Source: Ephemerocybe angulata (taxonomy: Eukaryota; Basidiomycota; Agaricomycetes; Agaricales; Psathyrellaceae). From it: DNA of 64,000 nucleotides. The stretch covers positions 744,001 to 808,000 of the forward strand of contig JAACJK010000004.1 of assembly GCA_013368325.1 (NCBI GenBank), written 5' to 3'. A program made the translations under genes and the position numbers. The notes under the pieces are model-generated. The model was given only the letters and a program-made list of their open reading frames with translations, did no database searches and had not been told where the DNA came from. Position 1 is the first letter of the stretch. Each line of letters begins with the position of its first letter. Positions 19,756 to 42,307 of the stretch are shown here, piece after piece.

Positions 19756-20280
19756 TCAAGGGGGGACCGGACTTTAAATTACCGACCGGTACCTACCTAG
19801 TTAGTCCAGCCCTCGGGCTGGAAAAAAAAAATCAGACCCCCTATAGAAATACCCTAAAATAGCGCAAATTTGAGGATATACGGGCTCATCTTGGTCTGGA
19901 AAAGCATCTTATGGCCTCAGGCAGCTGTAGCTGACATTACAGTCCCAAAACAGGTGCATGCTGACGTTGTGCCACCTCTGCAATCAATATGAGCCCAATA
20001 TAGGCATGCCCCTAACTACCATTTTCAGAAAGCCAAGGTGTCACGACATACGGCGGCGGACCACTACTACCTTGCACCTTCAATCACTCCCTCAGAAAAC
20101 ACTCACCACGGTCAAGAAGAATAAAAACAGGTGGTCGGGCAAATAAGTGCCCAAGGCTATGACATATTATTACTATATTTGGAAATGCCCCTGATTACGT
20201 ACTTAGTTAGTCCACCTTGCGTTTGGCCTAGTCAAAATTCCGACCCTAGGTTTTTTTTCTGAAGTCCGGCCCTCCCTTGG
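19756..20280 (+). mobile_element. 525-bp non-autonomous derivative (MITE) of the P-like family
   Basis: The ends are TCAAGGGGGGACCGGACTT and, inverted, CCAAGGGAGGGCCGGACTT. They are flanked by TCGGAT at 19,750-19,755 and 20,281-20,286, a 6-bp duplication. The left 80 bp match the 5' leader of copy 1 (AACTTAGTTAGTCCAGCCCT-type block). The right part matches the 3' end of the large element (ACGTAATCAGGGG..TATA.. block at 20,592-20,630). It is therefore an internal-deletion derivative, inserted in opposite orientation into the leader of copy 1. No coding capacity. Confidence 0.75.
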
Positions 20281-21039
20281 TCGGATTTTTTTCCCTCCAG
20301 CCCGAGGGCTGGACTAACTAAGTAGGTTGAGGTCGGCTATTTAAAGTCTGGACCCCCCTTGGACAAAGCGATGGGGGATGGCCAGAGGTGAGTGCAGAGA
20401 TCGAGGTCGCTTCGTCGATTTCGTCGTGGCAAACACACAGCTCCGTGTGCATCGTGGGCTGCGTCGTGCGAGCGAAGGCGAGTTCAGGGCCAGCGCAAGG
20501 CCAGCGTTGTCCAAGGGTGGTCCGGTCTTCAGAAAATAGACCTGGGGTCGGAAAATCCTGGGGGAGCGATCCACGGCCGACCAACCACCCACGTAATCAG
20601 GGGTATTACTATATAAGGTAATATTACATCATCGGTCACCGTTTCCAAATAAATTAGCCCCTATTTTGCGCGTCTGGCAACCTTGGTTGGATTCGACGCC
20701 TCGCATGACTCGCATTTCCAGCCTCGAGGCCTCTGTTCAAGCCCTACACACTCAAGATGGAACTTGAGGTGAGATATATCAGCTTCTCGCTGCCCATTTA
20801 CTACATGCTCACTTACCCAAAGAGTTTCGCAGCCATTCCCACTACACTTGATCGATCCCGCTGAATGGGCTTCAACAACAACGTCACACCCGGTGCATCC
20901 CCCTAGAAGCGCTCTCCAACTTCGCTTTGACGCACGGCGTGTACCCTTGAGGCTAGATTCGCCCGCAGGCTCACCCTGAACAACGTTCATGGAGGGATCA
21001 ACAGAATTGCTGGACTGGGGCTTATCTGCAGGGACGCGC

Positions 21040-22426
21040 TGATGTGCGGCTACGGGGCTAAGAGCCAAACACGCCTCTAACCAAAACAACAAACACAACA
21101 CACAACACACACACAACCACACTAGGGTAGCTGAGGGGCAACTCGCTCGAGGTAGAGCGGGCAAAGTAATGTATTGGACTAGAGGACTAGGTCGACTCTA
21201 AGGTACTCGCAACTAGCAAGTTTGAAGGGGAGTTCTAGACTCGACCGCGCTTCGGGGTGATATAGGTTCTCGATGAGAGGGTGGGGTCTCGGGAGGACGA
21301 GGTCGCTACCACGAGAGGGCTTTCACTAGGCTCGAGAGCTTCGCAAAAGGAACAGAAAACTTAAAGACAATTGGCACGACGACCAGACAGACAGACAGAC
21401 AGACAGATAGCGCGACGGCTAGACTTTGGACTTTGACTTAGAGACTTGAAAGATGAAAACTGGGGGGTAACTGATTTTCTCTAAACTACTCGCGAGACTT
21501 AAGTACATGCCGAATATTTACAAACGAGCTCGAAGACAAACAGATGAAAAACACATGCGATCGCGATACATTCCGAAACAGTCCAAGTGAAACATAGAGA
21601 TAGGAGGGAAGACCTCTCGAGGTTGAACTCAAGGCCAATTAGCGCCCGGGTAAATACCCAAGACTGTGCCGTTGCCACCAACCGACTTCTTCGTACACGC
21701 CGCGCCACCCGTCTCGTGTGGGACGACCTATTCTTATCTCTGATTGTGGTTCCCCTCTGATAGAGTGGAGCCGCGGATAATCCATCCGATATCCGGGCAA
21801 GGGAATCATGGGGCGCTTAAGTTGTGCCGGTTCCGCTTCCCCTGTGTTACACGCGGGTGCCTGTACTGAGTTTTCCCCTCAGCCGATGGCGATCCCAGAA
21901 CTTTCCCGAGACGTGGTTTGATTGCGAACATCTCGAGGTGTGATCGACCTCTCGACGTGCCACCTCTCGTGAAGATCAAGTCGCGCGGGAGCTATACTCC
22001 GGCGCTTATCAGGGGCTCGGGTGCAATCCCTCTCGACTACTGATGTCACGGTGATCTCTCGACTCTGGGTGTGGCGAGAGTGTTCTCGCGAGATACGAAG
22101 GGATGGGTAGGGGGCTTCCCATTGATACGCACTACTCTGCCTATGTCCGTTACTTGCCAAGTCGATCCCATAGTTGTCCCGCGCGTGTCTCTTCAAAGTA
22201 GCAAGTGTCTCGCGAAGGTAGGTCTTACCCGCTTGAGGCTACTCGTCACTTCTCGTAGTCCCGCGCGTAGGTCAGAGAGGCTAAGTCAGCAGCTCTGGGC
22301 TCGGCTCTGACTCTCGTTCCCCTTTACGTTGGTGCAGGTCTTTTGATAGATGATATGCAGTGGGAATCGCGTATTTATTAAGGTAAATCGCGATTTTTAG
22401 TGGGTAGACGCGCTGAAGGCGCATCA
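21040..22426 (-). repeat. 3' LTR of the Gypsy element
   Basis: 1,387 bp, starts TGATGTGCGG and ends GGCGCATCA on the plus strand. Compared line by line with the 5' LTR I find one difference (C at about 22,000 versus T at about 35,580). It contains a CA-rich tract near 21,085-21,120 and a (CAGA)n tetranucleotide run near 21,385-21,407. The small open frames inside are not genes. Confidence 0.9.
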
Positions 22427-22439
22427 TCTCCCCCCAACT
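22427..22439 (-). other. polypurine tract next to the 3' LTR
   Basis: On the element's coding strand this reads AGTTGGGGGGAGA directly before the LTR, the expected primer site for plus-strand DNA synthesis. The same 13 bases recur at 27,247-27,259. Confidence 0.7.
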
Positions 22440-22850
22440 GAAATCTAGACTGTCCTCAGTCCTTTTGATACCGCTACCCAACTTCGTTCTTGTCCTCTCG
22501 CGAGTTCACCGACCTGTCTGCCTCGCCTCAGTCCTTTGCCGCGAGGTCCCCGGTTCATTCTGATCCCGAGACGTCCTAACAACCCTGTACCCTCGACTCT
22601 ATTGATTCTAAGTTTTTCCCGGTGCTTGCAGGATTAGCCCGCGTCACATCCTTCTCGCGTAGTTCTCAACATGTCATGTCATTCGAAGCGCGTTCTGAAT
22701 GTTCTCCCAGGATTCTTCTGCGTTATCCATTCCCGGGCTCATGTCACAAATGTCACATTTGTCTTCACATATAGCCCGGCCTTCTTGGGGACTTTCTGAC
22801 TCGCGTTCCGCCTCTCTTCGTACTCTCTTCTCTCTTCTCTCTCTATACAG

Positions 22851-24899
22851 ATGGCCGATCCCTCCCTTGGTATGGCAGCCGACATGGTAGCTGCGCTTCA
22901 GGCGGCGACGGCGTCCCCGGACTGGAGTCCTCAAAAGCTAAACGCCTTCTACGATGAGTGGATCCGCGTAGTGGTAAGCTGCCTCTCGTCTGCTCTACGA
23001 TCGGACGCTAAGAGTTCTTTCTTTTCTCGATCCACAGCAACTCATCCATACCAACCCTCTGCTAACTCAGCATCCCAACTTCCCCGCTTTTCGCAACTAC
23101 ATGGCGTACTACCTCGGCCAGGCCACTTCTGACAAGAAAATCAAACGCTCCCTTTCGTCGGCGCTCAATCCTAAAGCTCAGTGGTCCGCGCCCCTCTTTC
23201 CACCTAATCCTCCGCCCTCCGACTGGCCTACTCCAGCTACACCCCCTTCGTCCAAGGCCCCTTCCTCGGGTTCCTCTCGGAAAGCTCAAGGCACGGTGTC
23301 CGCGCCCCTTGCCCGGTGCGTAGCCTCGATGCTCATTTTGGCGGTGTACTCACATTCTTCTCCAGCGTCAACGCGCACATCTCCAGTTCCAAACCCTCAA
23401 CTTCGCGTCCGAAAGCTTCAGACACCCGAGAGCGGATTGCGACGCAACCGGCGCCTATCTCGCTCGGTGAGGTCAAGGACGTCGGTCGGCGCCATCAAGT
23501 GGCTGGCCTTAGTTCTGCTCGTCCCGCCGAGGTTCCATCCAAGCGCAAGTCCTCTGGTGACACTGGGGTACGTCGCGTTCTCTCCGTTCCTCTCGGTCGA
23601 CTTATCTGAACAGTTCTTGGGCGTGCAGCCGCCTCCCCTTAAGAAGATCAAAGTCGAGCCGACTTCGTCATCCCGCGGTGCTGGTCCCTCCTCGTCTACC
23701 AGAACTTCGTCTTCGAAAGGCAAGGGCCATGCCGCGCAGCCTCCACCCTCTCTGTACGCTGCCCATCAACTTCGCCCTCCCGTTCCCAAGACCGTTAGGA
23801 CTACGATCGATGTCGAGACCTACGATCCTGAACAGTCCGACGATTCCGATTCGTCTAGCGACTCTTCTAGCATTACCGGAGACTTCGTTGGAGACGCTGG
23901 GGGCGACGCTGAGGATGCTGGAGGCGACGGCGAGGGTGAGGTCGACGAGGCGCAAAGCCGCAGGCAACTTATGGCTGCGAGACAGGCCGCCGCCTTTCAA
24001 GCTCATCAGCTCGCCATAGCCGAGGTCCTTCAGCACTTAGTGCCGCCCTCCCAGCTCCTCTCGTCTCGTTCCGACGTCAAGCTCCTCAAGCGCGTCACCA
24101 CTCCTCCTCCTAGGGTTGGTCCCTCTTTCTCCATTACCACTTTGTTACTCACCTCTCGATCCCAGCCGCCTCCTCCGTGCGGTCGATGCATCGCTCGAGG
24201 TGCACTTCCGGAGTGCGTCGAGGACCCTAAAGACCCCCACGGGAAGTGCTTGGCTTGTAAGACCTCGAGCCAGTCGTGCTCGTGGGCTCCTTCGATACGC
24301 CCTCCTCGCGTCACCTTACCTCAAGTCCGGGAGATGGAGTTCCTCACGAGTCAGGCGCCGAGCGTCAACAGTACGTTCTACCCTTCGCGCCATCCTGGTT
24401 CCGTTTTACTCACCTCCCCCATTCTCTAGATGCTAATCGCGCTTTCCAAACGCTTGTCGTCGAGCACGCCATGTACGACGAGATGCGCAAGCTTTGCGAG
24501 TTCCAGGCCCTCAAGGTCGACGCCGCTCAATCGTTCCTCGCGAACATCTTAAACAGCACTCGCGACTGTGGCTCCGACGAGCTCATCAAGAGCATCGCTT
24601 CCTCCTCTTGGTACGCCGCCGCTGAGAACCGAGGAACCAGTCAAGGCACCGTCGCGTTCCCCGTCGTCAACCCTGCCAACTTCATTACTCCGGCCTCCAA
24701 TCCACTTCCTTCGTCGTCGTCGCCTGCCGCTCCTCAAATCGTGGTCCTCCCTTCGTCAGGTTCGTCTTCGCAGGTCGAGGACGACCACTCGGTCGAACAG
24801 GAGCTGGGAGGCGAAGTTCGTGACGGGGGTGTTCCCATCGACGAGGAGGAAGAAGGCGAAGCGGCGTTGGATGCGCAGGACGCTCCTCCCGTTGCTTAG
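22851..24899 (+). CDS. antisense cargo gene A: zinc-cluster-like protein of unknown function
   Basis: Exons: 22,851-22,973; 23,038-23,315; 23,366-23,567; 23,629-24,114; 24,166-24,370; 24,430-24,899; all GT..AG with matching phases, giving 587 aa. The protein has an N-terminal helical part (SPQKLNAFYDEW), long Ser/Pro-rich and acidic low-complexity stretches (about residues 200-330), a six-cysteine cluster (CGRC..EC, then KCLACKTSSQSC, spacing C-x2-C-x8-C-x10-C-x2-C-x6-C) that resembles but does not exactly match fungal Zn2Cys6, a helical stretch after it, and an acidic C-terminus. It has no signal peptide or membrane segment, so it is not envelope-like. It runs opposite to gag-pol, so its introns are retained in the element's RNA genome. 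A DNA-binding or nucleic-acid role is possible but unproven. Confidence 0.65.
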
Positions 24900-25481
24900 G
24901 CGCTCGGCTTCCCCTTTTCTTGGACTCTTCTCTCTCAAACAGACACTGACTCTTACGTATCACCTATACTTCTACACCACTACTATGGCTTCCATGTACC
25001 TTCCCATTCACGTCTCAAATGTATTGCGCTCGTATTTTGACGTCTCGTAGCTCTTTGATTGGTTTCGCGCATTTTAAGCGCCCGTGTGAAGGTGTGCAGT
25101 TCCACCTCTCGAGGTAAGATTTCTCTATCTCTCGGCTTCACTTTCTTGGTATCATGGCGGAGGATCGACAGGGGCTCGACCTTGTCGATCGCACCTCTCG
25201 CCTGGAACCTTCGTCGTAGTCACGGTCCTCGAGATCTCGGTTTAGCCGTTAAGCGCCCCCCTGTTTGATGGCGCGCGGGTGCAATTACGCTCCCCTTCCA
25301 TAGCGTTTCACGCGTGCAATTCCTCTCAGCTTCGCTGCCGCGCGATATTCCTCGCGCCGAGCTATTCTGGCATCCTATTCCACGCGCTACCTCACATGTC
25401 GCCATCTCTGGGTGCCGGACTCCGAGACCCAATGCTAGATTATGACTTAGACCCCTGTTCCCGCTCCAGTTCTCTCTCGAG

Positions 25482-25487
25482 TATAAA
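25482..25487 (+). promoter_or_regulatory. TATA box of antisense gene B
   Basis: GAGTATAAATACTGG is centred about 60 nt upstream of the ATG of gene B. A pyrimidine-rich stretch follows (25,498-25,541), as in many fungal promoters. Confidence 0.5.
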
Positions 25488-25543
25488 TACTGGGGAGTTT
25501 TCTCTCCTTTTCAGCATCGATTTACTCGACCTTCTCTCTCTCA

Positions 25544-27054
25544 ATGCCTGTCGTTCCTTCCCCTTCTCCTTCTCCTCCTCCTGAGGCTGCTGCTCCGGCG
25601 TCTCCCAGGTCTATCCTTCGCACTTTCAATGAAGGTGCGAATGACCTTGAAGACCACCTCTTAGGGACCAGCATTACGTCCCTCACCCAAGTTCGCAACG
25701 ATTGCCTCAAGCACATCCTTCCTGGTTCCAAGACCTTGAACCCTCGTGCCGCCAACGCGGTTAGTCGCGCCCAAGAGGGCTTGTTTGACCTCGTTGTATG
25801 TTCGGTTCTTACAGATCTCCTTACCCCGCGACTGACCCTTCTCATAGGAGCCACCTGCGGTCGAAGCCGTTCTTAAGCACAACTCTCGTCACCGTCGCAT
25901 CGTTGGGAAACTCCATGCCGCGTTGACTGCTCACCAGGCCGCGTTCTCTTCTCGCGAGGTCACGCCTCCGGATAACGAGAAGCTCGAGCTGGTTCTCAAG
26001 TACCTGGGCGAGTGCCGCGAAAGTTACGGTCCGCGTCAGGATACCCCGATGCCTACCGCTGCTTCTGCGGCTACCGCGGCCGATGGCGATGCCACTGTTC
26101 GTGCCGCGAAGTCTACCGCGTCTTCCTTGGCTCGTGCGTACTCTCCTTCATCGTCTTATCTTCTCTTCTCTGATTCATCCTCTCCCTAGGCGTCTTGTTC
26201 CCTGTCGCTGAGTCCGTTACTCCGGCTGAGGAGAGTGCTCCCTCTAAGGGTAAAGCTAAGGCTAGTGCTCCTGCCCCTGAGGACATTGAGGTACGTATCC
26301 TATGTTTCTCTCCTGTAGCCCGTTGCTTACTCTCGCGTTCTCTAGGAGATCACCTTCTTGGAACCTCAGGATGTGGTCATGGCCGATGCCTCTGCCAACA
26401 ATGCTCGTCGTGGCCGTTCTGCTCGCGGCGGTGCTGCTGGGGTATGCATCTTTCTTTCTTCCCACTTTCTCCTTCTGACTTCGTTCCTAGGGCTCTCGTA
26501 CTCGTCCCACTCGTGGTGGTAGCACCAACTCGTCCGGCGGAGTCCGCATGTTGGACCACTCTCAGGTTCCTAACATGGACACCGGTTCTCCTATGTTTAT
26601 GAAGGCCCAGCAAGTTAACAACAAGAGGTCTCGCCAGGGAGAGGTTCATCGCGAGGCTCAGGCTTCTGGTTCTCGGGGCTCTGGGAACCGTCTTTTCCCT
26701 GACGGTAACCTTGTCGAGTACAGTGCGCCTTCTCCCTTCGATTTCCTTATGTCCTCGGGCTTACTCTCTCTTGTAGTCGATGATCGCGCGATCTCTAACC
26801 AGTACGTTCAGGGAGTGGTCTCCAACTCGCTCAAGTTGGTTCGCGACTTCGCCAACCAGACTCAGAACGAGGAGAACCTCCGTGTTATTATTGGCGAGAC
26901 CCGCGGCGTCATGTTGCAGGTTATTCACAAGCTTCAGATCTACACTGGTTTCTGGCAGATCCTCAACGAGGAGTACACCACTTTGAAGGCTTCTCTTCTT
27001 TCTCTCAACGACAACTCTGCTGCTTCTTCTTCTGCTCCTTCTACCTCTACTTAG
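25544..27054 (+). CDS. antisense cargo gene B: protein of unknown function
   Basis: Exons: 25,544-25,795; 25,848-26,133; 26,190-26,290; 26,346-26,441; 26,491-27,054; introns 49-56 nt, all GT..AG, phases consistent, giving 432 aa. The N-terminus is Pro/Ser-rich. A helical segment with HHR-like basic residues follows (LKHNSRHRRIVGKLHAAL), then Ala/Thr/Ser-rich linkers and an RGG-like stretch (NNARRGRSARGGAAG..RTRPTRGGS) suggestive of RNA binding. The C-terminal about 110 residues (SPFDFLMSSGLLSLVVDD ... FWQILNEEYTTL) look like a folded helical domain. I do not recognise a family. It lies downstream of gene A in the same orientation, both opposite to pol. Confidence 0.65.
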
Positions 27055-27246
27055 GTTCGCTTTAGTAGTCTTGGATCCGCTGAATCAGCTTTAGTCTAAT
27101 CGCGTAGTCCCTTCGAACGGTTTTTGCTCTCTAGTTTTCCGCTTTCGATGTCAATATGATTCTCGTTTGGACCTTTCTCTAAAATCGCAAAATTTCGGAG
27201 TAAGATAATCTTTATGTTAAGTATTGAGTTCGGGTAGTACCCTCTC

Positions 27247-27259
27247 TCTCCCCCCAACT
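27247..27259 (-). repeat. duplicate polypurine tract downstream of pol
   Basis: Thirteen bases identical to the PPT at 22,427-22,439, located 40 bp past the pol stop codon, where a compact Gypsy element would normally have its PPT and LTR. The two copies bracket the 4.8-kb block with the antisense genes. Confidence 0.65.
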
Positions 27260-27299
27260 AAAAAATCATCGTCCTCGATGACTCTGCGAACCTCTCGAC

Positions 27300-30200
27300 C
27301 TAATCGTCGTCTTCCTCAGGGTCACCTCTCGGCATTCCTTTAAATGCTAAGTCCTCAATGTACCCTGTTTCCGATTCTTCTTCCATCTCTTCCAGCGTGG
27401 ACGGCTCTATGTCGATGAAGTCATGAATTGACGCAGGGAGAGGAATGCGTTTCCTCGCGTGATATGGGATGACTCTGAAGGCACCAACGGCGCTCTGTAG
27501 GACAGCACCATCCATTTCTGCGAGAATGTACGCTCCTCCCTTATTACGTGCAATCACCACCAAAGGGCCTAAATACCGCGGCTTCATTTTCTTGTCGAGG
27601 CTTTTCTCAATGCTCGTATTGCGCATTAATACTAAGTCCCCGCGTTTGAATTTGAAGTCTCGGATTGTCCTTGCATACTCCTTTTCGTACTTCACGACGC
27701 GTTCTCTCTTCTCCTTATCAACTCGACTCCTCATGTTCTCGACTAAGTCCCTATGCTTAGCTAAACCTTTCGCGTGCTGCGCCAGAAGCTCCTCTGTGGT
27801 CATAGGACCGCTTGGAGGCTCGACTAGCCAAGTTGCCTCCTGGATGTCTAATGGCAGAACTGGTTCCGCGCCGGTGACCATGAAGAACGGAGAGACTCCG
27901 AATCGACGTCGTACCGTAACGCGGTCCGCCCACATAATGTGTTGGAAGTACCAGTACCATTGTTTCGCGACTCCATTGGTTGCTTTAAACAGCATGTCGC
28001 GGACGTCGTAGTGGGGACGCTCGATCTGACCATTGGCTTTGGAGTTGTACGGCGAGATCTTAATTCCCTTAATGCCATACTTGTCCTCAAGCCATTTTGT
28101 CGCTTTCACGAACGCGCCTCCATTGTCCGTAACAATCTCCCTCATGCATCCCCATCTCGTGATGATCTCCAATAACCACGCGCCGATCTGTGCGCCTGTT
28201 TCTTCTTTCAAGGGCTTGCCCTCCATCCAAGAAGACAGCGCACACCGACCATGCACAATGTACTTGCAGCCGTTGCTTGCGGGAGTCATTTGCAACACAT
28301 CCGCGTGCAACACTTGGAAGATCGACGGAGTATCCGTGACTTGAGGTGGGATCTTCAACAGTAGCTTCGTCCTCAGCTGGCAAACGTGACAGGTCTTTAC
28401 ATACCAGTTCACATCTCCTTCGAGTTCAGGCCACCAGAAGCGCTTCAGTAGAACCTGAGTGGTGGCCCACGCGCCTCGGTGTCCAAGTGCGTCGTGTGCG
28501 GCCCTCATCATGTACATACGATTCTCCTTAGGCACAACTAGCTGTGGGTGCCCAGTTTGTCTTCGATACAGCTTTCCTTCTTTTTCGAAGTAATGGCTGC
28601 ACTCTCGGACCCACTTGCCCACATCTGCCGGCTTTAATCCCTCGGGCGCTTGTAGCGGCCCCTTTAGCCACTTAGCTATTTTGGGTAGGCGCTCGTCTGT
28701 GTCCCGCGCTTGTTGGGATCGTCTCGCGTCATCGTACGCCTCTATCTCTTCTTCATCCATTTTTAACTCTGCATCTGGCAACATCTCGACGTTGACCAAC
28801 TGTGCTCGCGTCGCCGTCCGGACATGTCGCGAGACACCAGTCAGAACTCTGTCATCCTCAAAATCGGCTTCAGGGATCGTGACATTGAGGAGATATCCTC
28901 CTCGCGTGTCAATCTCATGTTTGAAGTCCTCAAAGTCGAGCGGATCCGGATCCTCCGGGTTAGGTTTCGAGTATCCTCTCAGTCCGTCGCCCGATTCTCC
29001 TTGGTGGTCGTAGGGCTGGTGCGGCGGATCCTCTGGCATGCGATCACGCCTGGAAAGTCCATCCGCGGCAAAGGTCTTGCCTGCTACGTGCCGTAGCTCG
29101 AAGTGATACATTAGAATGTTCTCAATCCATCGGTTAATGGTAGCGTTAGGACCCATTTCCGGATTGTTGAGCATTCCTTTAATGTATTGAGCATCGGTTT
29201 CTACCACTAGACGTCTGCAGCCAATGAGCCAGTATTTGTTCTCCTGCAATGCTCTCATCAATCCGAATAACTCTCGTTTTGGTTGGGAGTAGCGAGCCTC
29301 GCGCGGAGTCATGGTAGTCGAGCCAAACCGCGCGTACCACCACTTCTTAAGGTCTGCAACGTCTTGTTGACTTATGTACCAGCCGATCGCTTTGTAGGAC
29401 GTGTCCACTGAGAGCTTGATCTCGGTGTTAACATCGTAGTCCAGGGATCTTAGGCATGGTGCGTCTCGGACTGCATCCTTTAAGTCTCGCATCGCGGCGT
29501 CCTGAGCTTCTCCCCACTCGAAGGGTTGGTCAATCCTTGTCAGCTTCTGGATCGCGTCTGCGCGTTTAGCATAGTCACGGATGAATATTCTCATCGTCCC
29601 CACTGTTCCTAGGAAGGCGCGGACATCGCTGACAGACTGACAAGGTCCCCACCTCTCGATGACGCCTACTCTCTCTGGCAGTGGCTTCCGACCTTCATAG
29701 GTACATAAATGGCCAACCACCACAAACTCGTCTGCGCACAGTACGGACTTCTTTCCTGAGAATGTGCCGCCACTGTACTTCATTCTCTCCACTACGCGGT
29801 TGAGATTCTGGAAATGTTCCCATACAAATCTTCGGATACCAGGGTTCTCGGGTATAGTCTCGTACGTACCGTCGGCTTTCTCGTATCTAGTACGAGGTCC
29901 ACCTACGGGCACATCATCCAAAAACGGCCAAGTGACTTCTGGTATTTCTTCTTGTAAGATATGGGTGACATCGTCGTGGAAGATGGGCACGGAATTGGTC
30001 CATCCCATGGGTAGGGTTACCAATCTCATCGCGCCGAAGGGTGTTTGGAATGTGGTGAGGTCTCGCGAGGAGGGTGATAATAACCTCTCGTCGTATCCTA
30101 CATATAAATCCAGACAGCCTCCACACGACCTTCCTGCGAACTTACTCGCCAACTCTTCCGTTGCTGGGGGCACTCCCGAGTGAGCGATTGTAACTGCGTT

Positions 30201-31063
30201 CAGCGGCTCTAAGCTGTGTACAATCCTCAGACTCTCTCCATCTTTCTTCAACACGCAAAACCACCTCGACCTGTACGATGAGTTCGAAGGCTCGTACACG
30301 CCGGCATCTATTTTGCTCTTGATCATGGCACACACGCGATCATACAAGCCTGGGGGAATAGGAATGTTTCTAAGCGCCCAAGGGGTGTGGGGGGTTGTGG
30401 GTATCTCGACTGGCGGGAAGAACTCTGGTTTAAAGCTCCCCCTTTCTGAATCGTCCCAAGCGAAGCCTTCTTCATGTATCGAGACGAAGTTATGTAATAG
30501 TTTCCTTTCTTCGTCCCACAAGAAGTCCCCTTTATGCAGCTTGTCCATGTCCTCCTTCCTTTCTTGTGTGTAGCGCCCAGTGGGTTTGAACTCCGAAGGC
30601 CTAGTCGGTAGCTCAGGGAGGTTCGCGGGCGGGTCACCTTTAATGTCCCTAATGATGCGAAACCTCTCGTCCAAGTGCCCCATAACCGGTTTGACTTTAT
30701 CAGCCACCTTCTTGTATTTCGTGCCCTTCGAGACTCCCTTGACCTTGGCTTTCGCTTTCTGATCTTGGGAGGTCATCGCTGGTTGCGTCTCCACGACTAA
30801 CTGTACTCTCTTTTCACTGTCTGGGTTTTCTATGGTCGAGAGGTAGTTTTGAAATACCTCTCGTCCTTTTCTGTCATCTTCGTCGCCTTCTGGAGTTCCC
30901 TCGAAGTACGACTGCAGATATGCTCTCTGTAACTCTTCTTGGCTGAATACGCTCTCTGTGGGTCTCACGACTTGGGTTAGGCTAATTTCGCCAGTCCTGT
31001 CATCTCTCTCGAGGATTAGACCCACTTCCCCCTGATCACCGTTGATCAGATCCTCGAGGCTCG
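27300..31063 (-). CDS. Gypsy pol: reverse transcriptase, RNase H, integrase
   Basis: The frame is open from just after a stop near 31,080 to 27,300, about 1,240 residues, with no start codon of its own needed if it is reached by -1 frameshift from pro. RT (about residues 190-470) has the catalytic FLDDV in place of the common YxDD. RNase H follows (KLSVDTS ... ELFGLM ... VVETDAQ). Integrase has the HHCC zinc finger (HDALGHRG ... CHVCQLR) and the D, D, E core (LHADVLQM, EIVTDNGGAF, NGQIERPH). A GPY/F-like stretch (KPRYLGPLVVI) lies near the C-terminus. No chromodomain is seen. All key residues are present, so the enzyme is probably functional. Confidence 0.9.
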
Positions 31064-32431
31064 AAAATTTACTTCTTGAGCATCAAGCATCTCTTTTCTA
31101 ACGTGCGGGGGTGGTTTGCCTCGAGGGCTGGTGGCAATGGTAATCCTCTTGCCCGTGTTGGGGTCGCAGAGTGTGATCTGCTGCTCGCCGCGGGTGTTGT
31201 TCTTGACTTCGCTTGACATAGCGACGTCGAAAGGTCTCCCGAGAAGAACATCATACGCTGGACGACGAATGATGTGAAGCTGGATATATGCCGTTACTCC
31301 ATCGAAATCGAACTCGATGTTTCTAGCTAGACCTAGAGTCTTTTCTGTCGTTCGGTTTGCGGACTGGAGGTGAATGACGATATCTGGATCGAATGAGATT
31401 CCCAGACGTCTCGCCACATCTGCATCCATGGAACAGATCTGGGAGCCCGTATCCAAGAGGACTTCTACCTTACCCGATTTATTGATACTCGGATAGACAG
31501 TTCTCAGAGACACGGATTCGCGCGCTACCAGAATTGGCCGCAGCTCTTCCCCATCTTCCAATGAATTTAGATACTGCTCCACGGGGTCACTAACTACGAA
31601 GGCTCCGTCGGGTACCGATGGAATTCCTTGTGCCAGAAAGACTTGCGCGGGAGGCAGCTCTTCCAACTGCATGAAGACTTGTTCAACTCTTACAGTCCCG
31701 GGTTCTTCCTCTTCTTCTCTTTCAGGATCGGGGATCTCCATTTCGCCCAACTCCTCTTCTGCCTCTAAGATGTTGCACATTTGTACCGCGCGAGCTTTGT
31801 ACTCAGTAGACATCAAGTCAATGAGAGCGATGATTTGGTACTCGAGATCTGAGGCTTTTTCCTTGTTATCAATCGCAATCTTCTTCTTGGTTATCATCTT
31901 TTTCAAGTACTCGCGGGCGGGTGCCGAAATGCTTGCCAAGTCCTTAAGACTCGTAGTGAACCTCGTACTCAGTAACTCCTCCATAATGCGGCTCAGCGAC
32001 TCAGCTTCCTCAATAGGCGCCTTATGCTGATACGCGGGTCCCTTCTTCTCTAAGCGAGGCAACGCTGCTTTGGGGTCAGAACGACCTTCTCTCCCTTGCT
32101 GGGCATCCTCGCGAGGTGTTGTTTTCAACGGAGTCGTTTTGAGTGGTGGTACTAGTACAAAGGGCCGGTCTTTCAACTTAGGCGCCGCTTGACTTGTTCC
32201 CCCAACTTCTACCGTTTCGAACCGCACTCCTCGAGGTGCTCGCGGATTAAAGACCTTCTTCACTCCGGACGGCGGCCCTCTTTTTATTGGCTCCTCATCC
32301 TCACTGTCTTCCTCATCCTCTACCGTGGCTTTTCTGCTGGGTTTGTTGTTACGCACCTCCGGACTTGCCTTGTCGCGACCAACGGTTCTTTTCGCGACGG
32401 CAGTGTCCTTCACTGGTCGCTGAGAAAACCC
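31046..32431 (-). CDS. Gypsy protease ORF (retropepsin)
   Basis: About 455 residues in a frame -1 relative to gag. The aspartic protease active site is LLDTGSQICSMD, with ILGRP-type flap partner YDVLLGRPF about 80 residues later. The N-terminal 200 residues are basic, then acidic, and of unknown role. The frame has no convenient ATG near its start and overlaps the end of gag, which suggests translation as a Gag-Pro fusion through frameshifting. It ends at 31,046 inside the overlap with pol. Confidence 0.8.
   Translation of the reverse strand, partial: GFSQRPVKDTAVAKRTVGRDKASPEVRNNKPSRKATVEDEEDSEDEEPIKRGPPSGVKKVFNPRAPRGVRFETVEVGGTSQAAPKLKDRPFVLVPPLKTTPLKTTPREDAQQGREGRSDPKAALPRLEKKGPAYQHKAPIEEAESLSRIMEELLSTRFTTSLKDLASISAPAREYLKKMITKKKIAIDNKEKASDLEYQIIALIDLMSTEYKARAVQMCNILEAEEELGEMEIPDPEREEEEEPGTVRVEQVFMQLEELPPAQVFLAQGIPSVPDGAFVVSDPVEQYLNSLEDGEELRPILVARESVSLRTVYPSINKSGKVEVLLDTGSQICSMDADVARRLGISFDPDIVIHLQSANRTTEKTLGLARNIEFDFDGVTAYIQLHIIRRPAYDVLLGRPFDVAMSSEVKNNTRGEQQITLCDPNTGKRITIATSPRGKPPPHVRKEMLDAQEVNFRASRI
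31064..31070 (-). promoter_or_regulatory. putative -1 ribosomal frameshift site, pro to pol (A AAT TTT)
   Basis: In the pro frame the codons read gtA AAT TTT cga, an X XXY YYZ heptamer. It lies in the only short window (about 40 nt) where both pro and pol frames are open. A -1 slip joins ...QEVNF to the pol frame (..SSLEDLING). The downstream structure was not evaluated. Confidence 0.6.
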
Positions 32432-34398
32432 TCATCATCCTCGCCACCTTGGTTCGCCCCAGACCGCGTCTGCAAAGGGAATTGATTCCTCCCGACCATC
32501 GGGGTAAGTGCCGCGACTAATTGGGACATCAATTGATTGCTCCGCTTCTGCTCCTGCTGGAGCTCCTTCCAAGGCTCGACCACTGGTTTCTGTACGAACT
32601 GGGCCTGTGGCTGCATGCTCTTGGCTCGCGCGGACGATCCTTGTTCCCTTAGGGAACTCAGATGATAAATCTCGTCTCGCAGAATGTTCATTTCGTCCCG
32701 AGTAATCATTTCTGATTCCTGGTACGGCGCTTGATGGAACTGGTCGCGCACATAGTCCGCACTGTCATCATAGTAGTGCTGGACGTTCTGGCTAGCCGTG
32801 GGCATGGGCAGTTTGTCTACTACCTCTTTCAAGGAGGTGCGAGGCATATTGCGCAGGCGATTCCCATGTTTGTCGAAGGTCCCATCCGGTCCCGATACAA
32901 TCTTGCCTTCGCTGATATGCTTCTGCTTGGCTTGACAGTCGTTCGCGAAGTGACCCTGTCCATTACAGTAGTAGCAAATCGACCCCGCGCTAGGAGGTGG
33001 TCCTCTCGTATTGTTTCCGAATCCAAAGCCCCCTCTCGAGCCTGGATTGTTCTGCTGGGTTGCAACCGCGAAGTTGTTGGGCTGACGCATGAACTTGTCA
33101 GCGCGTCCTTGACCAGCGCGCAACTCCTCGAGTTGAGTCTCCATGTAGGCATCCCGAGAGATCATCTTTTTATCGATGGCACTCAATTTCTGGTCTAGCA
33201 AAGAACTCACTCCTTGCAGAACTCGGTGTTCGAGGTCCTCGTACTCGACTTTCACAGTGGGCTCGTCGTTCCAACCGGGCTCGTACAACTTAGATGGGGC
33301 CGCGGGAGTTACTGCAGGAGTGCTCGGGGTAGCAGAGACGACCGAGGGTTTAGCCAAGATACCTCCCTTCTTTCCTCCGAACCTTTCTCCAAAGCGTTCC
33401 CTCTGAACCGCCAACTTTTCAGCACACGAGATCCATCGGTCAAACGGAATGATCTTCTCTCCTGCAACGACTTCCAGGGTGTCATCCGTTTCAGCTTCCT
33501 TCGAGAGTACCTCCCATGCTTTCGTACGGAAAGGCTCATCTAACGCGCCCAAGAAAAGGTTAACCAATTCATTGTTGCTCATGAGATGTTTCTCGAGTTT
33601 GGCTGCCTCGGCCCTGAACTTCAGCGCGAACTGCAATAAGGTATGACTCGCGTCTAGACCTATCCCTTGGTGCCTCGCGCACAACAGCTGGATCCGGGCT
33701 AGACTGCCGCGGTTCTGTAGCGCTGCGGTAGGATGGTACAAGAACAGTTTCTCCTTGAACTCCGCGTAGGTACCCGTTTTATATTCAGGTAGCGTTGTCC
33801 AGAGACTCTGTTCCGACATATCGCGGAAGTGAACCAATGCCTTCTTCTTCAAGCGATCTGCGATGATTTCGCATGCGCTGATCACATCCTCTACTTGTCT
33901 CACATACTCTAGGAACTCCTCTGGTTTCGTAGAATCGTACTTAGGACGATTCGCGGAATAACTATTCGGGAAGTTTTTATTCGACATGGGGAGCCCAGGG
34001 AATCCTTCGCCAGTGGCATCAGGATCGAGGGCTCGGATTCGCGCTTGTTCGTCAGCCATGATAGGAGTCGTTGATAATTGACTGCTACTCGAATGTCTGC
34101 GGTTTCTACGGCGTCTGCGACTGGAGTTCGTGGATTGCGAACTTTCTCTACTTTCTCGTCTCGGATTGCGCGCGGGTTCTACGCGATTGGATTTCGAGGC
34201 TAGCGCGAGTGCGGTAGTTCGAGGTTTTCCTCTCGTGAACGGGGCGACTTGGCGGGTTCTGGTGGGAGGTACAGCCGGTGGTACGACTCTGCTGCTTCTC
34301 GCTTTCGCGTTCGTAGGTGCTTGGAAACTTGTCCCTGGTCTGGGATAGTTATCAAAGGCAACTAGTTCTGTTCCTGCTTCGGCAACAGCTGTTCTCAT
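32410..34398 (-). CDS. Gypsy Gag
   Basis: The open frame reaches upstream to 34,491, but the first in-frame ATG is at 34,398; a second candidate start is at 34,059 (MADEQARIRALD). The region before it is basic and Ser/Arg-rich. The capsid-like helical part (PEEFLEYVRQVEDV ... LWTTLPEYKTGTYAEFK ... LLQFALKFRAE) is followed by a CCHC zinc knuckle (CYYCNGQGHFANDC) for RNA packaging. The protein ends DDEGFLSDQ at a TGA that overlaps the protease frame. No internal stops. Confidence 0.85.
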   Translation of the reverse strand: MRTAVAEAGTELVAFDNYPRPGTSFQAPTNAKARSSRVVPPAVPPTRTRQVAPFTRGKPRTTALALASKSNRVEPARNPRRESRESSQSTNSSRRRRRNRRHSSSSQLSTTPIMADEQARIRALDPDATGEGFPGLPMSNKNFPNSYSANRPKYDSTKPEEFLEYVRQVEDVISACEIIADRLKKKALVHFRDMSEQSLWTTLPEYKTGTYAEFKEKLFLYHPTAALQNRGSLARIQLLCARHQGIGLDASHTLLQFALKFRAEAAKLEKHLMSNNELVNLFLGALDEPFRTKAWEVLSKEAETDDTLEVVAGEKIIPFDRWISCAEKLAVQRERFGERFGGKKGGILAKPSVVSATPSTPAVTPAAPSKLYEPGWNDEPTVKVEYEDLEHRVLQGVSSLLDQKLSAIDKKMISRDAYMETQLEELRAGQGRADKFMRQPNNFAVATQQNNPGSRGGFGFGNNTRGPPPSAGSICYYCNGQGHFANDCQAKQKHISEGKIVSGPDGTFDKHGNRLRNMPRTSLKEVVDKLPMPTASQNVQHYYDDSADYVRDQFHQAPYQESEMITRDEMNILRDEIYHLSSLREQGSSARAKSMQPQAQFVQKPVVEPWKELQQEQKRSNQLMSQLVAALTPMVGRNQFPLQTRSGANQGGEDDEGFLSDQ
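32425..32431 (-). promoter_or_regulatory. putative -1 ribosomal frameshift site, gag to pro (G GGT TTT)
   Basis: In the gag frame the codons read gaG GGT TTT ctc, an X XXY YYZ heptamer. It falls within the small gag/pro overlap: the pro frame has a TGA immediately upstream and gag stops 12 nt downstream. A -1 slip would give Gag-Pro. Confidence 0.6.
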
Positions 34399-34599
34399 TC
34401 GCGCGCGAACGGACGGTTGAGTTCCAACGGGTTGACTAGGGAGAACTGGGTTCTTCCTGGGTCGCTCTACTCCTTTTCCTTTATCAAGCACAGGTCTTCT
34501 CGACGCTATGTTGATAGAACTCGTTTACTATCTGAAACGGACAAACGGATCTCGCTCGAGAGCTTGATCACGAATGAAGCTTTGATCGATTCTGACTCC

Positions 34600-34617
34600 C
34601 CCTCGCGGTGGGCTCCA
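34600..34617 (-). other. primer binding site
   Basis: Two bases inside the 5' LTR the coding strand reads TGGAGCCCACCGCGAGGG, the usual TGG-starting complement of a tRNA 3' end. The tRNA species was not assigned. Confidence 0.5.
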
Positions 34618-34619
34618 GA

Positions 34620-36006
34620 TGATGTGCGGCTACGGGGCTAAGAGCCAAACACGCCTCTAACCAAAACAACAAACACAACACACAACACACACACAACCAC
34701 ACTAGGGTAGCTGAGGGGCAACTCGCTCGAGGTAGAGCGGGCAAAGTAATGTATTGGACTAGAGGACTAGGTCGACTCTAAGGTACTCGCAACTAGCAAG
34801 TTTGAAGGGGAGTTCTAGACTCGACCGCGCTTCGGGGTGATATAGGTTCTCGATGAGAGGGTGGGGTCTCGGGAGGACGAGGTCGCTACCACGAGAGGGC
34901 TTTCACTAGGCTCGAGAGCTTCGCAAAAGGAACAGAAAACTTAAAGACAATTGGCACGACGACCAGACAGACAGACAGACAGACAGATAGCGCGACGGCT
35001 AGACTTTGGACTTTGACTTAGAGACTTGAAAGATGAAAACTGGGGGGTAACTGATTTTCTCTAAACTACTCGCGAGACTTAAGTACATGCCGAATATTTA
35101 CAAACGAGCTCGAAGACAAACAGATGAAAAACACATGCGATCGCGATACATTCCGAAACAGTCCAAGTGAAACATAGAGATAGGAGGGAAGACCTCTCGA
35201 GGTTGAACTCAAGGCCAATTAGCGCCCGGGTAAATACCCAAGACTGTGCCGTTGCCACCAACCGACTTCTTCGTACACGCCGCGCCACCCGTCTCGTGTG
35301 GGACGACCTATTCTTATCTCTGATTGTGGTTCCCCTCTGATAGAGTGGAGCCGCGGATAATCCATCCGATATCCGGGCAAGGGAATCATGGGGCGCTTAA
35401 GTTGTGCCGGTTCCGCTTCCCCTGTGTTACACGCGGGTGCCTGTACTGAGTTTTCCCCTCAGCCGATGGCGATCCCAGAACTTTCCCGAGACGTGGTTTG
35501 ATTGCGAACATCTCGAGGTGTGATCGACCTCTCGACGTGCCACCTCTCGTGAAGATCAAGTCGCGCGGGAGCTATACTCTGGCGCTTATCAGGGGCTCGG
35601 GTGCAATCCCTCTCGACTACTGATGTCACGGTGATCTCTCGACTCTGGGTGTGGCGAGAGTGTTCTCGCGAGATACGAAGGGATGGGTAGGGGGCTTCCC
35701 ATTGATACGCACTACTCTGCCTATGTCCGTTACTTGCCAAGTCGATCCCATAGTTGTCCCGCGCGTGTCTCTTCAAAGTAGCAAGTGTCTCGCGAAGGTA
35801 GGTCTTACCCGCTTGAGGCTACTCGTCACTTCTCGTAGTCCCGCGCGTAGGTCAGAGAGGCTAAGTCAGCAGCTCTGGGCTCGGCTCTGACTCTCGTTCC
35901 CCTTTACGTTGGTGCAGGTCTTTTGATAGATGATATGCAGTGGGAATCGCGTATTTATTAAGGTAAATCGCGATTTTTAGTGGGTAGACGCGCTGAAGGC
36001 GCATCA
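34620..36006 (-). repeat. 5' LTR of the Gypsy element
   Basis: Same length and ends as the 3' LTR, with one visible substitution. In the element's orientation it should carry the promoter for gag-pol, but no core promoter motif stood out. Confidence 0.9.
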
Positions 36007-39000
36007 GCGCTTGGAAGGCACCCGGATCTTCAAGGTGAGGCCGGATTTGGAGCCTCTGAGAGGAATACTGTGAAAAGGATAGGAGATTCAGTAAGCGTGA
36101 AAAGGAAGGCACACATATTAACTAACCTATCCAGTTCTGAGCTCCCGGATCCTTCAACTCGCGCAACCGCAGCAGTGCTCGCAACCACGTCTACCACGTC
36201 TACCTCGGCTATGCTCGCAGAAGGGCTTAATACACTCTGGGGCGAGTCCGAGGAAAAAGGATTAGGCACAGAGTCACCCTCGCCATCTATATCCATTCCC
36301 CAGAACCCGTCATCCTCAAGCTCCTGTTCGAGCGAGTATGTTGACCGTCGAGTCGAGCTTGTAGAGCTGTGCACAGAGTGCTCGTCGTCGGATTCGGGCC
36401 CCTCTGCTTCGTCGTTGCTCTCTACCGGTGTGCCATCATCTTCGTCGCCGTCGTCGCTGTCGTCATAGTCATATCCTTCAGTTGGGCTATAGAATGTGTC
36501 ATTTGCAGTTTCAAGTTAGATAAGTATAATGGAGAACGTACATTGCAGTGTTGGATGATCTGTGAGAGTCGGAGATAGGAAGCTGGACACGGCTCGCCTT
36601 TTTTGCTGCGCTAGTAATTGAATTGTCGGCGCGATTCTTCCATCGCTTCTTCATCTCGAGCTTCTCGAAGTTGGTGATGTGCCAGAGGTCGGAGTACTCG
36701 GCTCTTCCCACCTGTGCTGGATGCGCCCGTATGAAGTGCGACTTCAGGTTATATTTCCAGACAGCGGGAGAGTTCTTGGGACAAAGCGGGCACACAAGAG
36801 GTGAGTTTGAGCATGGCGAGCTCGTTGTTGACTCAGACGCAACGTGGGCATAAAAGCGGATTGAATACTTGCATTCGGACTTGCGCCTGTCGACAGTAAG
36901 ATTCCCGTTGGCGCCTTTGCTTTTCTTCAAGTAGTATTTGCACAAAGGGAATGGGCGAAGGCAGAGTCCGCAAGGTTCGTCAGAGACCTTAACCTTTGGG
37001 TCATTGAGAATATGAGCCGCCATATGCTCGATGACGCGCTGGCTCTGCGAGACATCTAGCGTAGGTGGCGGGCTGCAGTATTCGCACTCGACGGATGTCG
37101 CACCACTGATTCCGTCGAGAGAGCGTTCATCTTCGGCTAGGAAACAGGCACGCCCTGTAAAAGGCATTCAGTACATTTCCTGAGTCGAATTTCGGGGTAA
37201 ATACTTACCTCCAACCTCACGGTAAGGAAAACTGGGGCTAACCGCGATTCGCGGCGCCAATTTGAGGTCCAAGACCGAAAGCCTGGCCAATAAACTCGCA
37301 GAGAGTGCTATAAGGAACGCACTGTCGAGGAGATAATAGACCTTCGAAGGGCTCGTCGAGTGCGAGGCCACAGTGGGGCTAATGAGCTCAACGAGTCGTC
37401 CAGGGACCGTGAAGCTATTCTCGGGAATCAGGTGCGTTCTCCAGTTGTGTTCTTCGTCGGGGTCGTCTTCAACAGTTGCAGGACGCAAGCCGGACAGCTG
37501 AAATGAAATGCGGACGGTATCTTCGACCAGAAGGTCAATCGGCACCTCGTCCACCGCCTTCCCATCCCACTTGATCGTCGTAATCTCCCCAACACAGAGC
37601 CAGAGCTTCTCATCGGACCACAAGAGAGTCGAGATGGGATCGTGAACAATGATAGACCTTGCTGTCGATGATTCCGGGTCAGTTATGTGCGTGCTGGGTA
37701 CTTCTGGGGTGGTAGGTCGTGCTGAGTATCGTTCTGCGTGCTGGACACGCTTGAGACGGTTGCGCGACGTGGGGAACGACCGGTGACGACCGTATATTGC
37801 GACTGCGCGAGACTTGGCCATGACCGAGCCATTCACAAGCATGGTCTTCTTGAATGACCTGCCACTTGAAGACCCACTTCCCGGTTCATCACCGTCTGCA
37901 TCTGCCAAAGTATCCTCGACTTCAACCCGCGCTGACACATTGTCCTGAGCGAGTTCCTCCACGGGCTGAACCTCGCTATCCTCCGACTGCACCACCTCTT
38001 CACCTGGCTCGGATTCCTCAACCTCGACCTCGATACATTCGTCGGCATCATCTGTCGATGGGTTTGCGGTGACAAGAAGCTTCCCGTTGGGTGAAAGGAT
38101 GTCGAAATCGGAACCAGGTGTGCATGCCACGATCCTCTGCACCTCGCATAGTTCCTCCTTTGCTCCAGGTATCTCGTTCTCAATCAAGCGTCTTCCTCGC
38201 ATCCAGGCTGTCTGTAGCGTGATGCCCTTGACCTTGAGGTTGCTCTTCCACGAGCGTGGCTTCAAGTGGTCTGTCGTTGATGGTAAAGCCTTGAGATTTG
38301 CGTCCAGCGCTGGTAAGGTGAGTTGACGGGGTGGGCGGTCCCAATGAGGAAATCGTGCAAGGATATTCGCGACTTCCGCGGTGCTGCTAAGCCTCCAGGA
38401 TATCTGGAGAAGGTCGAGGTTGGCGTCATTTCCAACCATGGTTCGGAGGTGCCCAAAGAGCTCTTCAAGCCGGTCGGTTCCAAGGAGAACTAACCAAAAC
38501 GACCCATCCAGATTGTCCACCTTCGTTTTAGCGACACAAAAGAACGTGTTCTTGATCATGATCATTATGTTGGTGTAGAGAAGGGTTGGCAAACCCTTGG
38601 TGCCGTCCGTGCGGTATAGGTACATCGCAAGGTGAGAGGCTGCGCTCAAATGCTCGAGTTGCTGGGAGAGGCTGAGCTCGACGTTGATGTATGGTGTGAC
38701 GAGGTGCTGGAGAAACTGCCCGAAAATCCATAGGGACTGTCGAGTGCGGAAGAAGCCTGGGGTCTCATTGGTGGTAGCGCGGGGAAGAGACCAGATAGTG
38801 CGCAACAGATCAAACGCAAGTTTGACATCCTGTTTGTCATCTGGATTCATGATTGAGCGGATGTGGTCAGCGCTCACTGACTCGGCCTGTAGGTGCGCTT
38901 TGAGGATTGCTGGTGTTATTCGAACACCTGCTACGACAATGCCGGACTCGCGAAGCAATAGATTCCGTAGTCGCTTAAAGACATGCTTCCAGTCTTTGTC

Positions 39001-39321
39001 TGCTGTGAGGTCGTCGTCTCCGACATAAAGGTTCATGAATGGGAGCGAGGAGAGAAGATGATGGATATCCGAGTCCGGAGAAAGCTTCTCTTTGAAGGTG
39101 AGCATGGTCATGGCTGCACCACGCCGCGATTCACCATCCGATGCGAGACTGACAATCCGTATGTTTGTCTTCGCCTTCTGGTCGTTTACGCCATCGATCG
39201 TCGCCTGCAAGACTTTGGCATGCTCTTCTCCCATTTCTTTCTTGCAATCTCCAGAGACTAGAACTCCTCGCGCACCATAGATGCGGTTATCGTCGGAAAG
39301 GAGACCGAGAGCGCTTATCAT

Positions 39322-39638
39322 TAGTGATAAGCAGGGGTTAACCCCGGGTTCAAAAGCGCCAACCCCCACCCGACCCGCGCCTTAACCCCACCCGTAACCC
39401 GCCGGGTTAACCCGTCAAAACAAGCCCAAAAACGTCCAAATCGGACGAAAAATGAGTAAGATATGGTGTTTTTGAGATTCTTTACTCATTTCCATCCTAT
39501 CTTGCTCAGATTTCATCCGTTTTGGACGATCTCGAGCTCGTTTTGAAAAGCGCGGGTTGGAGATTCCCAACCCGCACCCTACCCACGCCGGGTTCAACCC
39601 GTAACCCGCACGGGTTTTTCAACCCCTGCTTATCACTA
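39322..39638. mobile_element. 317-bp hAT-type MITE inside exon 4 of the P-like transposase
   Basis: Ends TAGTGATAAGCAGGGGTT and its inverse AACCCCTGCTTATCACTA, flanked by CTTATCAT at 39,314-39,321 and 39,639-39,646. The 8-bp duplication and the TAGTG start (YARNG) are hAT hallmarks. Subterminal parts are full of GGGTT/AACCC units. Removing the element plus one duplication restores the transposase frame (..AMIS / ALGLL..). Confidence 0.85.
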
Positions 39639-42212
39639 CTTATCATTGCCTGTAATTGGGGCGTGTGAGTATATTTGGTGATGGGAAACGGAGGCAAATT
39701 TGGTTCCATCCAACGTTGATCTCGTACCTCTCCCGCCAAGTGCGCCTTCCCCTCGTCCACTCCATGATACACCTCTTCTATGTCCTCCTGCGATTCGATT
39801 TCTAGCGGCACATTGTGCGCATGCTCACGACACAACCCCACTACGTGATTGGTGCTGGAATCGTAGCGCAATCGCTTCTCCGTCGTGATTTCGTCAAACA
39901 TGAGCACAGCGTGGATGTTACGAGCACCGGCTTGGGGTTTCATGGCTTCCTTGAGGTCTTCGAACGACATCTCGGTGTTCTTCGAAACTTCTTGCGCAGT
40001 TGGCTTGCCAGGAGATAGGTGGATTGGGGGAATACGAACTTGGTTCTTGAGTGTCGTGATCGAGGGGAGATCAAGCGAATGGTGCGCAATACTTGCAACG
40101 CGATTCCCGCCCAGTTTCCAGAGGACTAACCCTTTCATGTAGTGCTCCTCCTCGTAACTCTTTGGCTTGTAGATACCCTCTGCCGCCCTCAAGCACTGGT
40201 CCAACATGCTTCGAATACCCCGACCGTGCCGTAGACCCAACCGAATTATTCGATCCACGCGCTCGACTTTCTTGCTAGCCACGGCGGTGACAAATCGCTT
40301 GTGATCTTCGAGTGCCCTAGCTTTCGATACCAACTTCCGAGCTTGGTTCAGGCTTCGTAGGCGATGGAACTGTATTTGCTGGGTCTTGATTCGCAGAAGC
40401 TCTCGCATCACTCCAAGCCCATGGTATGCAAACGTCGTCCCCTCCTTCACTCCGTTCTGCATTCGCTCAACCACCCCCTTCAAGACGTTGTTCCTGGCCA
40501 ACGAGCGACAGCACCGGCACGTCTCGCCCTCCTTCCGAACAGTTTGCTCGCATAGCCTCGAAAACAAGCTCATCTTGCCGTTTTTAAGCGAGATATCCCA
40601 GGGAAGATCCATCTGGTCATGTAGTAGGAACGGGTGTGCTGCATTCGGTGAGTTGTTGTTTGGTATCACTAGCTTGTAGCCAGCACAACGTGTGGCCTCG
40701 GAGATGGAGTCAACGTCGATGACACCTTGGGCGGATTTGTTCGTTGGCGAGCATTTGCTGACGCGGTGTTCGTTTCTTAGGGGATCGGCTTTGTTCGCGC
40801 TGTCGACATCGATGATGGTGCCTACAAGGTCATCGTCGATTCTAGGACCGACTTGAAGGAGGGGTTTCTCAGGGGGAACATCATGGGGATATATCAAGTC
40901 TATTGCCGCAACGGGCTGGTCTACACGACTGAGGCTCCTCCTAATGCCACCAGTGAGTACGAAGTACAAGTCGTGCCGAGGATGTACTCACCATTTCTCT
41001 ATAGCCTCCACAAGCCGAGTCACTCTCACCTCGAGCAGTCCCTCCGCCAAGCCCCGTCCATCCACAAAGTGCGTCACAAACGCAGAGAACCCCCTTAGCC
41101 GTGCCGCCGTCAATCCGATAACCTTCTGTTGGTACGTCTCGTCGTCTTGCCCCCACCCAAAGGCGCTGTGCAACATGGAATTGATACTCTCTTCCCACAG
41201 CTCGTCGATAGATTTGGCCGGGTTGTCGTAGTGCGAAGGTGGCACCTCGAATTCAGCGAGGAATGTGTTCTCGGTGCCCGCCGGGGGGTCCATAAGCTGA
41301 AGCGCGATTTCATGGAGTTTCTTTCGCGCTCCAGATAGATGAGTTGTGTTGGGACTTTGGAGTGCCGCGGCGTGGCTGGATGAGGTCGCTATCAGGTTGT
41401 TCTCGATATCGACAGGCTTTTGGACGGGACGGGCAGTCTTCGATCGAATAGCTGGTGTTGTAATGATTAAGGGGGCGGTTGCAGTGCTGGGAATTGTCTT
41501 CTTCTTCTTTCCTAGGGAGAAAAAGCTCTTGAAGCCGAGTGCCGCTTTTTGGATGCCTTCTTGCTCCTTCAGCTCCTTCGCAGCCTTGTCACAGTTTGGC
41601 GTGTACATGTGTGTCTTGAGTATGTTTTTCGGACCCCCGGTGCCAGTGGGGTAAGCCTTCTCGCATCTAGGGCAAAGCATATGCCCAGCTTCATCGTACT
41701 TCAGTGACTATGGTATGTTGAGCCTTCTCCTTGTCAAATTTCAGTGCGTAAATGGACTGACCTTCATATATTGTGCTATCTCTTCATCTGTGATCTCATG
41801 ACTCTTCGGCACCTTGAAGCGTAAGGGTGCCATGGTTTCTAAGTTCTGATGAATAGGATTTGTGCAGTACAGTTGGCAAACGGTTGAGGAGGTTGAGTTG
41901 AATCAATATGAGATTTCCATGCAAATGTCGCGGTTGGCCAACGGTGTTGATCTATATTTGGCAGACGCCGAGCCGGTGCCCGGCCAAAGGGATCTATACT
42001 TTGGCATCGCATACGCACTGCAGCCAATATTAAAGCAAATATAAATGGTACAGAGGATATATGGAGGGTGTATCTAGTCTAAAACACCCAAAAATCGACC
42101 TCCCAGACCCATGTTTTTGGGTGGTCCAAAAATTTTTTTCTGGGCCTCCGGCCCCGACCAACCACCCAAGGTCCAGTCGGCTATTTAAAGACCGGACCAC
42201 CCTTGGCGTTGT

Positions 42213-42307
42213 CGGCTTCGACATGGCTAATGTCAATCCAAGCCGTGGACGGTGGCCGTGGCATGCTCGTCGTCGTAGTCGCCGATCTCGCAAGAGTCGG
42301 TGCCAAT
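42213..42307 (+). other. chromosomal sequence between two transposons
   Basis: Before the insertions, the sequence left of 20,511 was contiguous with this strip, and this strip with 43,741 onward. It may belong to a small spliced gene starting at an ATG at 42,222 (MANVNPSRGR..), but this is not convincing. Confidence 0.3.

Follow-up and report, generated by a model that had tools for sequence, protein, structure and literature searches.

Evidence for a P-superfamily transposon with a PHD finger on its transposase in the mushroom Ephemerocybe angulata

The window considered here, the whole 64,000-nucleotide stretch of Ephemerocybe angulata contig JAACJK010000004.1 that was analysed (C67:744001-808000, from a genome of 58.7 Mb in 232 contigs), contains a DNA transposon that holds two later insertions (Table 1). 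It is very probably a member of the P superfamily whose protein ends in a PHD finger. One end of the element is CAAGGGTGGTCCGGTCTT and the other its exact reverse complement, 18 bp each, and the flanks carry an 8-bp target-site duplication, GCGTTGTC. A preliminary description of the locus placed the element at 20511..42206, which is right to within one base, and it recognised the perfect inverted ends, giving them as 19 rather than 18 bp. The element begins with CAAGGG, not CCAAGGG, and the 6-bp duplication CGTTGT described earlier arose because the neighbouring base on each side had been counted into the repeat. With the boundary moved by one base at either end, the duplication measures 8 bp in this element and likewise in 19 further pairs, which rules out a 6-bp duplication. 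The suggestion of a separate clade, argued from those 6 bp, therefore falls, since 8 bp is the length found in P elements.

A near-identical copy (copy B, C67:734327-740724; 6,398 bp) lies 24 kb away in the opposite orientation. It has neither insertion, carries its own 8-bp duplication, AGTGCGAA, and is 99.4-99.8% identical to the window copy in the aligned pieces. We read the exon structure on this uninterrupted copy, without excising the inserts from the window copy, and found a gene of eight exons with GT-AG introns throughout that encodes 1,823 residues plus a stop, in agreement with the eight exons and the 1,824 codons without an internal stop described before (that count includes the stop codon). 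A model with seven exons and 1,849 residues was rejected, as the 78-nt stretch that it retains is an intron according to the diverged copy C22 and the homologues. The element had been called autonomous: copy B does hold the complete gene, but the window copy is not autonomous as it stands because its two insertions split it. Both insertions had been noticed correctly. The one in exon 7 is a long terminal repeat (LTR) retrotransposon, with 1 difference in 1,387 bp between its LTRs and with GCGC on both flanks, which we take as its duplication (length judged by eye); the one in exon 4 is a 317-bp miniature inverted-repeat transposable element (MITE) that we take to be hAT-like.

The fold, the catalytic triad and the 8-bp duplication justify going beyond the earlier term "P-like" and assigning the element to the P superfamily. 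The predicted fold of the core of a homologue (model residues ~200-725) matches the Drosophila P transposase (6p5a, 6pe2), with an RNase H-like catalytic fold in the P-type arrangement. The motif order proposed previously (FDEITTEK, SLASDGES, DWKHVFKRLRN, LEELFGHLR) is supported, as are the arrangement with several zinc fingers and the PHD finger at the C-terminus. Using the P-element catalytic residue numbering in the accessible part of PMC7776569, we find the D, D, E triad and the Asp three residues before the Glu kept in 92, 93, 92 and 92 of 94 chosen rows; these counts were taken without a simple motif pattern scan, which missed many motifs visible in the alignment. The P-type Pfam profile PF21787 reaches 22 bits on the transposase, below its cut-off of 24.6, and E <=0.1 in 20 of 35 family members; such a profile counts as supporting rather than defining. 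Terminal and subterminal repeats are both present, the former as the 18-bp inverted ends and the latter as an 11-bp motif that is direct, not inverted. No THAP model appears among the Pfam matches of the transposase, whose N-terminus by our reading has a C2HC-like finger instead, and for this reason we do not file it in the P element/THAP9 family in the narrow sense. A PDB profile search with alignment A1 gave no match, and comparing the fold of the core with viral structures gave none at E <=0.001. Guanosine triphosphate (GTP) might be the cofactor; the comparison on this point covered the residue at D951.

The 18-bp end has 69 + 63 genome matches at no more than 3 mismatches, against 16 + 15 for a reversed control. 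Among the 100 end places listed, 37 neighbouring pairs form possible elements, 28 of them shorter than 1 kb and the other 9 between 1.75 and 21.7 kb long. Of the 37, 20 were examined, and every one has a perfect 8-bp duplication, which exceeds chance; these were 12 short and 8 long elements, the latter being the window copy, copy B, C22, two in C231, C117:3192035, C47:797786 and C98:396829. A pairing with 5 of 8 mismatches in the duplication proved not to be an element, as it joins the left end (19757) of a nested 523-bp element to the end of a remnant at 20361. The C22 copy (C22:366087-372319; 6,233 bp) is diverged and has the duplication CATACCTA. A genome search with the core exon returned 44 matches, which include more than 12 other coding places with 46-74% identity, and a few near 30%. 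The two near-identical copies and the many short elements suggest recent movement.

The two C231 elements (C231:45012-53417, 8.4 kb, and C231:101424-107911, 6.5 kb) have the transposon's ends and 8-bp duplications, and neither has a transposase-core match in the core-exon search. By eye, hAT-like coding fragments lie in the outermost 1.5 kb at the ends of both, so nested hAT insertions may have enlarged what were originally short elements.

In copy B, the 11-bp motif GACCAACCACC occurs in direct orientation 68 bases from the gene-3' end and 40 from the gene-5' end. Of the nine short elements shown, five have it at both of these distances. Read by eye, two more of the nine have it at 40 with a one-base variant at the other place, a one-base variant lies near each end of the short element L081, the 523-bp element next to the transposon has GGACTAACTA near both ends in its stead, and the C22 copy has GACCAACCACC at 40 and GACCAACCAAC at 68. 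Because the motif varies in step at both ends, it suits a transposase-binding site, for which we consider it a candidate.

The search in other fungi was done at the protein level: 7,994 candidates were scored for the core, and 305 proteins matched at E <=1e-5. The 120 of these that were listed belong to Agaricomycetes by the names we recognised (Ephemerocybe, Mycena, Laccaria, Armillaria, Auricularia and others) and are annotated as hypothetical or uncharacterised, several being PHD-type according to UniRef. We detected a PHD finger in 29 of the 43 homologues with at least 1,500 residues, 12 of which entered the profile. A single long open frame, ~30% identical to the core (L083 341-3799; C125:3359900-3363700), corresponds to the annotated hypothetical protein D9611_002091, identical over the query, and represents a second large mushroom lineage that shares the D, D, E motifs. 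No PHD finger was detected in 120 proteins of this sister lineage, of which only 9 have at least 1,500 residues.

Behind the core, the transposase continues with an SH3-like barrel, then a block of zinc fingers and finally, at residues ~1764-1811, the C-terminal PHD finger, which is ING-like. Against solved chains, the PHD stretch matches ING1 (9m4r) at E 4.5e-5, and all 21 chains at E <=1 match over this stretch. The Cys4-His-Cys3 (C4HC3) pattern is present in 13 compared sequences, and the residue two before the His is W in 13 of 13 complete PHD fingers, the pattern that picked 12 of them having also allowed F or Y. The Trp at this place lines the cage in readers of trimethylated lysine 4 of histone H3 (H3K4me3). 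Contact with histone H3 would be the most likely role of the tail, at chances that we judge about balanced, and insertion guided by chromatin through the PHD finger, a possibility raised in the preliminary description, is plausible. Tentatively, and at less than even odds, the mushroom P lineage may have built its own chromatin-reading tail of barrel, zinc block and PHD finger, so that one protein would both cut DNA and read H3, an arrangement like RAG1 plus RAG2 but independently reached; such a tail might steer or license insertion and might have aided the spread through the Agaricomycetes.

Several observations weigh against a chromatin-reading tail and suit an alternative to which we would give an even chance, namely that the transposon is the same but its PHD finger and barrel act in protein stability, self-regulation or some other protein contact without guiding insertion. 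In our reading of the PHD finger alignments, two residues are not seen at the positions that we take to be those of the ING cage: the cage's first aromatic residue and the acidic one that follows the third cysteine. The barrel resembles histone readers weakly, and no clear motif emerged among 18 target sites. A Foldseek search with the barrel gave E 0.099 at best, to proteins taken as unrelated. Between copy B and C22 the first half of the PHD finger is poorly conserved, whereas between copy B and C107 it is conserved far above the linker, both comparisons being short and saturated at synonymous sites; this second comparison and the Trp found in every complete PHD finger compared speak against the alternative. 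A search for other proteins with the PHD stretch of P0002 is uninformative, since of 6 candidates the query alone matched. We have slightly lowered our estimate for the chromatin-reading tail because the test of constraint on the PHD finger was mixed and because few of the sister-lineage proteins are long.

Most probably, the transposase would bind both ends through the subterminal GACCAACCACC, placed asymmetrically at 68 and 40 bases; the paired ends would then be cut by the DDE core and the element inserted with an 8-bp stagger. It could also mobilise in trans those short non-autonomous elements that share these ends (28 candidates, of which 12 were checked), and contact of the tail with histone H3 might bias or license insertion according to chromatin state.

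That a KDZ (Zisupton-type) or hAT transposon has been mistaken for a P element is very unlikely, and we disfavour it. No KDZ family (Zisupton, Kyakuja, Dileera) appears among the Pfam matches of the transposase, Pfam being a collection that holds KDZ models. What could favour such a mistake is that Zisupton makes 8-bp duplications, which are also usual in hAT elements, and that Kyakuja elements begin with CA and end with TG, according to the available part of PMC12730594. A domesticated host gene family is scarcely credible, for although the open reading frames are long and conserved and many homologues are annotated merely as hypothetical proteins, the gene sits within precise inverted ends and target duplications at several places, with two near-identical copies 24 kb apart and matching short elements.

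Table 1. Features of the transposon and its insertions, in window positions
Feature	Position	Strand	Remarks
P-superfamily DNA transposon (very probable), window copy, holding two later insertions	20512..42205	- (gene on minus strand)	inverted ends and target-site duplication; near-identical uninterrupted copy
Target-site duplication GCGTTGTC, left copy, 8 bp	20504..20511	.	
Target-site duplication GCGTTGTC, right copy, 8 bp	42206..42213	.	
Left terminal inverted repeat CAAGGGTGGTCCGGTCTT, gene 3' side	20512..20529	+	
Right terminal inverted repeat, gene 5' side	42188..42205	-	
11-bp subterminal motif GACCAACCACC, 68 bases from left end	20579..20589	+	candidate transposase-binding site
11-bp motif GACCAACCACC, direct orientation, 40 bases from right end	42156..42166	+	
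Exon 1, start ATG	41762..41833	-	
Exon 2, N-terminal C2HC-like zinc finger CPRC...H...C from residue 36	40992..41707	-	finger read by eye
Exon 3, CRCC motif and first catalytic D612 (FDEITTEK)	39728..40940	-	
Exon 4, D730 (SLASDGES), helical insertion, D951/E954 (GTDRLEELFG), SH3-like barrel; split by 39322-39638	37209..39649	-	5' end 39649 by eye
SH3-like (Tudor/BAH-type) barrel, behind catalytic core	37210..37875	-	piece modelled alone
Exon 5, cysteine/histidine-rich zinc region, C2H2-like CPLC...H...H	36542..37154	-	
Exon 6, acidic linker	36127..36486	-	gene 3' end inferred from copy B length
Exon 7, first part, truncated by LTR retrotransposon	36007..36067	-	
Exon 7, second part, first half of PHD finger (CTGC...CSGNGCETLW)	20817..21039	-	
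Exon 8, second half of PHD finger (FHLECVGLEQRPRGWKCESC) and stop	20661..20762	-	
15-kb LTR retrotransposon, later insertion in exon 7	21040..36006	.	LTRs 21040-22426 and 34620-36006
317-bp hAT-like MITE, later insertion in exon 4	39322..39638	.	TAGTGATAAGC ends, 8-bp duplication CTTATCAT
Short non-autonomous neighbour element, related subfamily, 523 bp	19757..20279	.	duplication GTCGGATT

Adjoining the transposon, positions 17906-20361 of the window are a remnant of a more diverged P-type element (76% identity over 224 bp), with its own end at 20361 and with the 523-bp short element nested inside. A coding remnant at 16800-17900, which by eye resembles a hAT transposase with a BED-type finger, abuts it. 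Within the LTR retrotransposon we saw, again by eye, pol-like sequence on the minus strand and two more coding-looking regions on the plus strand (~22850-24900 and ~25540-27055); in a genome search that scored 40 of 89 candidates, LTR-type matches elsewhere in the genome make up 37 of the 40 matches. Rfam places two tRNA genes in the window, at 13778-13849 (-) and 51287-51358 (+).

P elements are already known from basidiomycetes, in the rust fungi (P-1_PSt and P-1_MLP, published in 2011, with 8-bp duplications; PMC3164196, in the part available). As described, the rust and mushroom elements are alike in belonging to the P superfamily, in their 8-bp duplications and in having autonomous and non-autonomous members, and the available part of that paper mentions no PHD finger. 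The accessible portion of a paper on Laccaria transposons does not name P elements (PMC3411680). Among the literature listed by our searches, which did not extend to Repbase, neither a P-superfamily transposase with a PHD finger nor this Agaricomycete family is reported. The present family places a large branch of the superfamily in the mushrooms, where the rusts were the one earlier basidiomycete report found.

Compared with the Drosophila P element and its transposase (6p5a, 6pe2), the mushroom protein, at 1,823 residues, has a C2HC-like finger at the N-terminus and no THAP match, adds the C-terminal barrel, zinc block and PHD finger, and is encoded in eight exons; its element has ends of 18 bp rather than 31 and a subterminal motif that is direct rather than inverted. 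The cysteine-rich zinc domain of PiggyMac/piggyBac stands at the C-terminus of a transposase relative and weakly binds histone H3 (PMC8086355, in excerpt), but its fold is not that of a PHD finger and the transposase superfamily is a different one. If the PHD finger does steer insertion, the mushroom element would offer a compact, testable DNA transposase with a built-in histone reader, for which the sister lineage without a detected PHD finger may serve as a natural control. Another parallel is with RAG1/RAG2 and the RAG-like transposons, in which the PHD finger is on the second protein, RAG2 (PMC8355894, as far as available), and the superfamily is another, whereas here it is on the transposase itself; the mushroom family also bears on the question of how, in RAG, a recombinase and a PHD finger came together.
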